Positions 23,746-36,824 of a DNA stretch of 43,873 nucleotides are shown here, one piece after another. Every line of letters begins with the position of its first letter. The first letter of the stretch is position 1. The DNA comes from Deltaproteobacteria bacterium (GTDB lineage: Bacteria; Myxococcota_A; UBA796; JAFGLY01): assembly GCA_016927815.1 (NCBI GenBank), contig JAFGLY010000035.1, positions 1-43,873 on the forward strand, in the 5' to 3' direction. The translations under genes were made by a program, and so were the position numbers. The notes under the pieces were generated by a model. That model did no database searches and was not told the origin of the DNA. It saw only the letters and a list, made by a program, of their open reading frames with translations.

Positions 23746-23761
23746 CCCCGCGCACGAGGCC

Positions 23762-23787
23762 CGCCCCGTCCGGACACGGGACGGGCG
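23762..23787 (+). terminator. Hairpin after the MopE-like gene, possible terminator
   Basis: A stem of about nine base pairs with one bulged C and a 7-nt loop begins 16 bp after the stop codon at 23745. There is no T tract, so it would be a weak or factor-dependent terminator. Confidence 0.35.
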
Positions 23788-23792
23788 TGCCG

Positions 23793-23809
23793 CACCTGGG
23801 ACCCAGGTG
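23793..23809. promoter_or_regulatory. Perfect 17-bp dyad upstream of the sigma-54 promoter
   Basis: CACCTGGG A CCCAGGTG has 8-bp arms that match perfectly around one central base. Its centre is about 55 bp upstream of the -24 box, a position where an enhancer-binding protein or repressor could act on the pseudopilin operon. Confidence 0.5.
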
Positions 23810-23853
23810 TCGCGGGTTCTCTGCGAAACGGTCGTCCAGCGGCCTCTCCACCC

Positions 23854-23869
23854 TGGCACGGAACCTGCA
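23854..23869 (+). promoter_or_regulatory. Sigma-54 (RpoN) promoter of the Tad-like pseudopilin operon
   Basis: TGGCACGGAACCTGCA matches the sigma-54 consensus TGGCACG-N4-TTGCW at every defined position but one (C for the first T of the -12 box), with correct GG to GC spacing. It lies 37-52 bp upstream of the ATG at 23906. Confidence 0.75.
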
Positions 23870-23905
23870 ATGAAACGCGGGTGACGTCCCCCGGAGGGTG
23901 GATCC

Positions 23906-35454: not shown

Positions 35455-36824
35455 AGCTCGACGGCCGCACGCTCGCAGATCTCTCAGGCGGCGTGCTCGT
35501 CGCCGACGGTCCGGCCGGACCCGTGGCGACGGATACCCGGGCGCTGTCTCCGAACGCCTGGTTCGTGGCCTTGAAAGGGTTGCACCACGATGGCCACGCC
35601 TTCCTGGCGGCTGCCCACGACGCCGGCTGCGCGGGTGCGGTCGTCTCCGCGGATCCGCCCGAGGGATGGGATCGAGGGCTCGTCCGCGTGCCGGACACGC
35701 TACGCGCCCTGCAGGACGTGGCCACGGGCGTGCGTCGGCGCTTCGGGGGCCCGGTCGTGGGCATCACGGGATCGGTCGGAAAGACCACCACCCGGGCGCT
35801 GGCCGCGCTGGCGCTCCAGGTTTCCGGCCGGGTCCACGCCACGGCCGGCAACCTCAACAACCACGTGGGCCTCCCCCTCACCATCCTGGCGGCTCCCCCG
35901 GACGCCACCGTCTGGGTGCTCGAGATGGGACTGTCCGCGCCCGGCGAGATCCGGCGCCTGCAGGAGATTGCCGCCCCCAACGTCCGCCTCGTCACCTGCG
36001 TGGCCGCGGCCCACCTGGAGGGACTCGGATCCGTGGAGGGTGTGGCCCGCGCCAAGGGGGAGCTGTTCGACACCGCTCGGCCCGGGGACGTGGTCTGCGT
36101 GAACACGGACGACCCACGGGTGGTGGCCCTGCCCGTACCCGGCCGGGTCCGCGTGCTGCGCTACGGAACGTCGCGTGGCTGCGACGTGCGGTTGATTCGG
36201 GCGACCCCCACGGCCGAGGGCGGAACCTCGTGGGTCGTGGAGGCGGCCGGCCGCGTGCTGTCCGGCGTTCTCCCCGCCCCGGGGCTCCACATGGCCCGCA
36301 ACCTGGTGGCGGCCGTGGCCCTCACCGTGGCCGTCGGCGCCTCGCTGGACGGGGTGCCCGAGGCGCTCGCCCGGTACGAACCGGTGGGCGATCGCATGCG
36401 CCTGGAGCGGGGCCCTGGAGGATTGACCTTCCTCAACGACGCCTACAACGCCAACCCCGAGAGCATGGCCGCAGCCCTGGACACCCTGGCCACGCTGCCC
36501 GCCTCCCGGCGGGTGGCCCTCCTGGGCGACATGCTCGAACTCGGGCCTCAGGAAACCGCCTTCCACCGTCAGGTGTTGGATCGTGCGCTCGCGGCGGGGT
36601 TGTCGCTGGTGGGGTTGTGCGGGCCGCGGATGGTGGCCGCAGCGGCGGAACTTCCGCCCCGCCTCGACCTCGTGGTGGCCCCGGATCCTGAAGGCCTGGC
36701 CCGAGCCGTGGCGGATCGGCTCGCGCCCGGCGACCTCGTGCTCGTCAAGGCGAGCCGCCAGGTTCGCATGGAACGGGCCCTGCATGTGCTGGCAACCCTG
36801 CTGGGCTCCGGCCCGGAGGCGTGA
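35451..36824 (+). CDS. murF: UDP-MurNAc-tripeptide:D-Ala-D-Ala ligase
   Basis: Adds D-Ala-D-Ala to complete the stem pentapeptide. The 457-aa protein has the Mur ligase layout: 'TDTRALSPNAWFVALKG' (27-43), ATP loop 'GITGSVGKTTTRALAALAL' (103-121), 'NLNNHVGLPLTIL', 'VLEMGLSAPGEI', 'PGLHMARNLVAAVAL' and 'LNDAYNANPESMAAAL', the last being a MurF signature. The GTG start at 35451 overlaps the murE stop. Its own TGA (36822-36824) lies 8 bp before the preferred mraY ATG. Confidence 0.96.
   Translation: MKLDGRTLADLSGGVLVADGPAGPVATDTRALSPNAWFVALKGLHHDGHAFLAAAHDAGCAGAVVSADPPEGWDRGLVRVPDTLRALQDVATGVRRRFGGPVVGITGSVGKTTTRALAALALQVSGRVHATAGNLNNHVGLPLTILAAPPDATVWVLEMGLSAPGEIRRLQEIAAPNVRLVTCVAAAHLEGLGSVEGVARAKGELFDTARPGDVVCVNTDDPRVVALPVPGRVRVLRYGTSRGCDVRLIRATPTAEGGTSWVVEAAGRVLSGVLPAPGLHMARNLVAAVALTVAVGASLDGVPEALARYEPVGDRMRLERGPGGLTFLNDAYNANPESMAAALDTLATLPASRRVALLGDMLELGPQETAFHRQVLDRALAAGLSLVGLCGPRMVAAAAELPPRLDLVVAPDPEGLARAVADRLAPGDLVLVKASRQVRMERALHVLATLLGSGPEA

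Follow-up and report, generated by a model that had tools for sequence, protein, structure and literature searches.

Comparative sequence analysis makes it very likely that a sigma-54 (RpoN) promoter at 23854..23869 (+ strand) transcribes a minor pilin operon, that an enhancer-binding protein (EBP) activates it and that it is switched on together with an unlinked Flp-like pilin gene. RNA polymerase carrying RpoN would bind the -24/-12 box and remain closed, and an EBP bound upstream would remodel this closed complex using ATP. The three genes (small TadE, large TadG-like and small TadE-like) would then be transcribed from the box, along with the Flp-like pilin gene on contig C168 and perhaps other sigma-54 pilus promoters. 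What was a guess from a motif is now a footprinted promoter for which a regulon is predicted.

The box, the minor pilin genes and the sigma-54 machinery

The element TGGCACGGAACCTGCA, which reads TGGCACG-GAAC-CTGCA, differs from the consensus TGGCACG-N4-TTGCW by a single mismatch, a C in place of T within the -12 element. Ten nucleotides lie between its GG (23855-23856) and its GC (23867-23868), and the near-consensus box with correct spacing (GG-N10-GC) that the sequence-only reading had described was thus confirmed. Transcription is predicted to start at 23880, which is 26 nt 5' of the tadE ATG (23906), and GGAGGG precedes this start codon. Within the window, i.e. the whole stretch of 43,873 nucleotides (43.9 kb) analysed here, the box obtained the top score of a sigma-54 matrix that follows the published consensus and gives approximate scores. 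A second matrix match at 36769 is located inside the end of the gene preceding an MraY-like gene and was judged to be a chance match. Scanning the region around the box revealed neither a sigma-70 promoter nor an intrinsic terminator, and none of the known RNA families was detected there.

Genome-wide, by pattern searches and inspection of chosen stretches of the assembly (4.0 Mb, 216 contigs), the consensus matched 43 sites with at most one mismatch. Since this barely exceeds the 38 matches of a reversed control pattern, the box alone is unconvincing; we judge it to be more than chance because it is conserved in relatives.

The box precedes the tadE-like minor pilin gene P0001 (23906..24325, + strand, 139 aa), whose product matches Pfam TadE (PF07811) above the cut-off. 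It is followed on the same strand by P0002 (24303..25334, 343 aa), a large TadG-like minor pilin with a match to Pfam Tad (PF13400) above the cut-off, and by P0004 (25294..25686, 130 aa), a second TadE-like minor pilin. The TadE match of P0004 falls just below the cut-off, and an orthologue is present in 17 of 17 neighbourhoods. The three genes probably form one operon, since P0004 overlaps the preceding gene. Upstream and outside the promoter lies a conserved neighbour on the + strand, P0003 (21556..23745), a MopE-repeat, choice-of-anchor-D protein with a MYXO-CTERM sorting signal matched above the cut-off, which is consistent with a Myxococcota or myxobacterial setting.

The AlphaFold model of P0002 (mean pLDDT 81) comprises a helix (residues 10-85), two further helices (99-143) and a beta scaffold. 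A fold search of the PDB with this model gave no significant match. Beyond the order, and apart from a single genome of the class to which it belongs, matches in the phylum were confined to the N-terminal part. One genome of this class, G064, encodes three large-pilin paralogues (L022, L028, L029), reminiscent of the multiple Tips of Myxococcus. We found no sigma-54 box at these three paralogues; one of them carries TTGACA-N17-TAGAAT.

The genome encodes RpoN, recognised by a PF00309 match in a frame of 504 aa, together with 19 EBPs whose strong PF00158 matches score above 140 bits. Its pilA gene carries a sigma-54 box and adjoins an EBP gene. At the main tad locus on contig 115, where gene names were read by eye from the translations, an exact consensus match is located about 110 bp 5' of flp, and a one-mismatch box is located 53 bp 5' of cpaB, which is followed by the rest of the locus. 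We searched for EBP genes adjoining the operon, or adjoining the pilin gene in relatives, and found none. Elsewhere in the same genome, two serpin-like lipoprotein genes (contigs C75 and C76; L043, L044) each have TGGCACGRACCTTGCG on their 5' side. Sigma-54-like boxes also precede a NifX-like gene and a gene for a secreted repeat protein (contigs C154 and C106; L033, L051), with an EBP encoded within a few kb of each.

Conservation of the box and the unlinked pilin promoter

Orthologous loci were collected from relatives at 38-48% protein identity, and the DNA 5' of tadE was read in the 18 readable loci. We regard the tadE genes as orthologues because their neighbourhood is conserved: P0003, TadE, TadG, TadE-like, PrmA and VKOR-DsbA follow one another in 16 of 17 loci, and a single locus is without P0003. 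GGCACR-N5-TGC was present 5' of tadE in 16 of the 18 readable loci of the order (G031 with the variant GGCCCG), and the exceptions were G048 and G010 (family f5). In each of the 16 the box was the outstanding matrix match of the locus of about 4 kb. This includes G001, where the box lies further 5' of the aligned start and outside our 80-bp scan. When the neighbourhoods (up to 13 kb) were scanned, the pattern was almost confined to the position upstream of tadE. Over the 16 loci the columns GGC, C and TGC were invariant and A and G nearly so, bearing in mind that boxes in relatives were chosen by the matrix, which favours conserved columns, and that the genomes are related and the counts not independent. 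The spacer and 40 bp of upstream flank were near-random over the same loci (flank 34% identical, ungapped). Other TadG-type loci of the phylum had no such box near their genes, and this held for the main tad loci of these f2 genomes too. In most f2 loci (L005-L017), TGCTANNNT lies 6-8 nt 5' of the ATG and the -12 box runs into it, which points to transcripts without a leader or to sigma-70 and sigma-54 promoters that overlap.

A sigma-54 box also precedes an unlinked Flp-like pilin gene (66-68 aa, GQSTVEYMLLISVIVIA, GQSTVEY) in every one of the 17 f1 and f2 genomes (families f1 and f2). These boxes, good to near-perfect ones, scored about 14 to 19 bits by the matrix, and the full TGGCACG-N4-TTGCW occurs at this promoter. 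In the genome under study the pilin gene is located on contig C168 at about 58.4-58.7 kb (G000, L227; relatives, L210-L225), and its box (TGGCATGCTCCTTGCC) is the weakest of the 17. In G010 the box is missing from both the tip and the pilin promoter.

The two promoters share a further element in genus g3. There, GCCCCA-N4-TGTCSC lies 68-70 bp 5' of the tadE box, and the same element, inverted, precedes the sigma-54 box of the unlinked pilin gene. Its half-site TGTCSC/GSGACA falls within the same 20-bp interval (about 58 bp upstream) in 7 of the 9 tip promoters and in 9 of the 10 pilin promoters, with about 0.2 expected from shuffles, flanks that are mostly 30-34% identical, and counts that are not independent, as the genomes are related. 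By their sequence, the tip operon and the unlinked pilin gene of the relatives form a putative two-promoter regulon, and the half-site offers a handle for finding the activator. The pilin promoter on C168 is without this half-site.

Other pilin loci of the f2 relatives were scanned as well. Four f2 genomes contain a further cpaB/flp locus (L158, L162, L163, L161), which has sigma-54 boxes upstream. The main flp promoters of f2 relatives mostly have none and look sigma-70-like, as does the main tad locus of these four genomes.

The earlier proposal, in which Tad-like minor pilin genes have a sigma-54 promoter, is supported by the conserved boxes, by the presence of RpoN and EBPs, and by boxes at other pilus promoters. 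The -24/-12 bases, on whose conservation in relatives the sequence-only reading had staked this proposal, are conserved.

The upstream dyad and alternative readings

The perfect 17-bp dyad claimed for the region about 55 bp upstream of the box was confirmed as the inverted repeat CACCTGGG-A-CCCAGGTG (8+1+8) at 23793..23809, a candidate EBP site. It ends 44 bp upstream of the box and has its centre at 53 bp, or about -79 from the predicted start. Its right end overlaps TGTCGC (23808..23813, + strand), which is identical to the g3 half-site.

Our slightly favoured explanation is that the dyad has no activating role and is either a palindrome that arose by chance or a second hairpin where the upstream gene has its terminator region. 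A G+C-rich hairpin without a T run (23759..23786, within a base or two, + strand) follows soon after the stop codon of that gene and is possibly the end of its transcript. The dyad comes after this longer hairpin, and both appear in the RNA fold. By itself the dyad is within chance, because the window holds 26 perfect dyads with 8-bp arms and spacers of 0-10 bp versus 20.6 expected (10 versus 8.6 for spacers up to 3). It is also unique: the check for further copies near sigma-54 promoters that the sequence-only reading had suggested yielded none in the whole genome within 2 mismatches. Similarity to the dyad was at background level in the regions upstream of 30 other sigma-54 matches, flp included, and the dyad is absent from the nearest relative, G001. 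However, like the first hairpin, the dyad lacks a T run, and its position speaks for a role at the promoter. A palindrome profile over 16 promoters peaked at -53 (z about 7), the centre of the window dyad, where genus g3 has a conserved dyad of different sequence. The g3 dyad keeps a steadier distance to the box (68-70) than to the upstream stop codon (about 6-18, by eye), and it recurs at the unlinked pilin promoter.

That the dyad, or the adjacent TGTCGC, is an EBP site in this species is conceivable from the sequence, at somewhat less than even chances. We set it no higher because the dyad is unique, at chance level and not found in G001, because the peak of the profile was carried by g3 (z 2.4 with one genome per genus), and because the half-site is offset, at -46 in the window versus about -59 in g3 promoters, i.e. 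13 bp closer to the box. By base composition, such a hexamer would occur by chance in perhaps one in fifteen such stretches. In favour of the dyad as the activator site are its position and its right arm, which runs into TGTCGC; its uniqueness in the genome, chance-level frequency and absence from G001 leave this proposal weakly supported. In a wider model for this uncultured order, which is probably myxobacterial, one EBP would act through sigma-54 on a signal to activate both the shaft pilin and a separately encoded tip complex, so that pilus and tip would be produced together, with the window dyad and TGTCGC as a diverged version of the same site; this model is more tentative still.

Symmetric dyads fit dimeric regulators, and the protein bound to this one might instead be a repressor or some regulator other than an EBP, in which case a site elsewhere would serve sigma-54 activation. 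Besides its symmetry, the unlikeness of its sequence to the g3 site would fit such a role. We consider this improbable: the lack of a further genomic copy would be unusual for a global regulator, and no regulator gene was recognised beside the dyad.

Very improbable, finally, is a reading in which GGCACG is a bystander and the conserved box is mainly an extended -10 (TGnTAnnnT), belonging to a promoter of the sigma-70 type that is often leaderless. In its favour, TGCTANNNT does resemble a sigma-70 extended -10, and a -10-like element occurs in G048 and G010 although the -24 box is missing there (G048 keeping only a variant of TGCTANNNT). Against it, GGCACR is nearly invariant even though it would lie in the stretch from -35 to -10, in which sigma-70 requires no particular bases. 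In G062, G052 and G017 the box and TGCTA are separate, TGCTA is absent from the window species and genus g23, and the unlinked pilin promoter bears the complete sigma-54 consensus.

Comparison with known systems

For the RpoN-dependent promoter that we favour, precedents exist. In Myxococcus, Pseudomonas and Geobacter, pilA with PilR is an example of a sigma-54 pilin promoter (cited in PMC3333781). The present case is alike in having a sigma-54 pilin promoter, and the box at this genome's own pilA likewise adjoins an EBP gene, but pilA encodes a type IVa pilin whereas the genes described here are of the Tad type.

In Myxococcus xanthus, KilN4 is a large pilin whose added domain combines a large beta scaffold with two long helices. 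It is encoded with two other TadE/F/G-like pilins, further Tip clusters are found elsewhere in the genome, and some of the Kil Tip clusters are separate from the core tad genes (PMC12075869). The main text of that paper is without the word sigma, and Kil Tip promoters are thus not typed there (PMC12075869). As in the kilLMN Tip clusters, three minor pilin genes are adjacent here and one of them is large (139, 343 and 130 aa, overlapping). The model of the large pilin fits the published description of KilN4, a likeness in layout and description only. Within a Tad/Flp pilus, the trio probably forms the tip or else the initiation complex. We searched this genome for FHIPEP, the type III export gate, and found none, and thus no sign of a partner T3SS. 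Should the three genes encode a pilus tip comparable to the Kil Tips with which Myxococcus kills prey, the promoter would tie the synthesis of tip and shaft in uncultured relatives to a single sigma-54 signal.

Sigma-54 control of Tad pili is already known from DVU2114 of Desulfovibrio vulgaris, a sigma-54-dependent response regulator of Tad-type pilin genes (PMC3333781, PMC4641369). Its regulon resembles the one proposed here in the sigma-54 control of Tad pilin genes and in that the EBP acts on two separate loci there. It differs in belonging to another lineage and in its targets, which in the present case are a trio of minor pilins plus a Flp-like pilin, with a putative EBP and a putative site. 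To this known case the present analysis adds a promoter footprinted in one more lineage. It also pairs this promoter with that of an unlinked pilin gene and, for a related genus, provides a half-site that is a candidate for activator binding.
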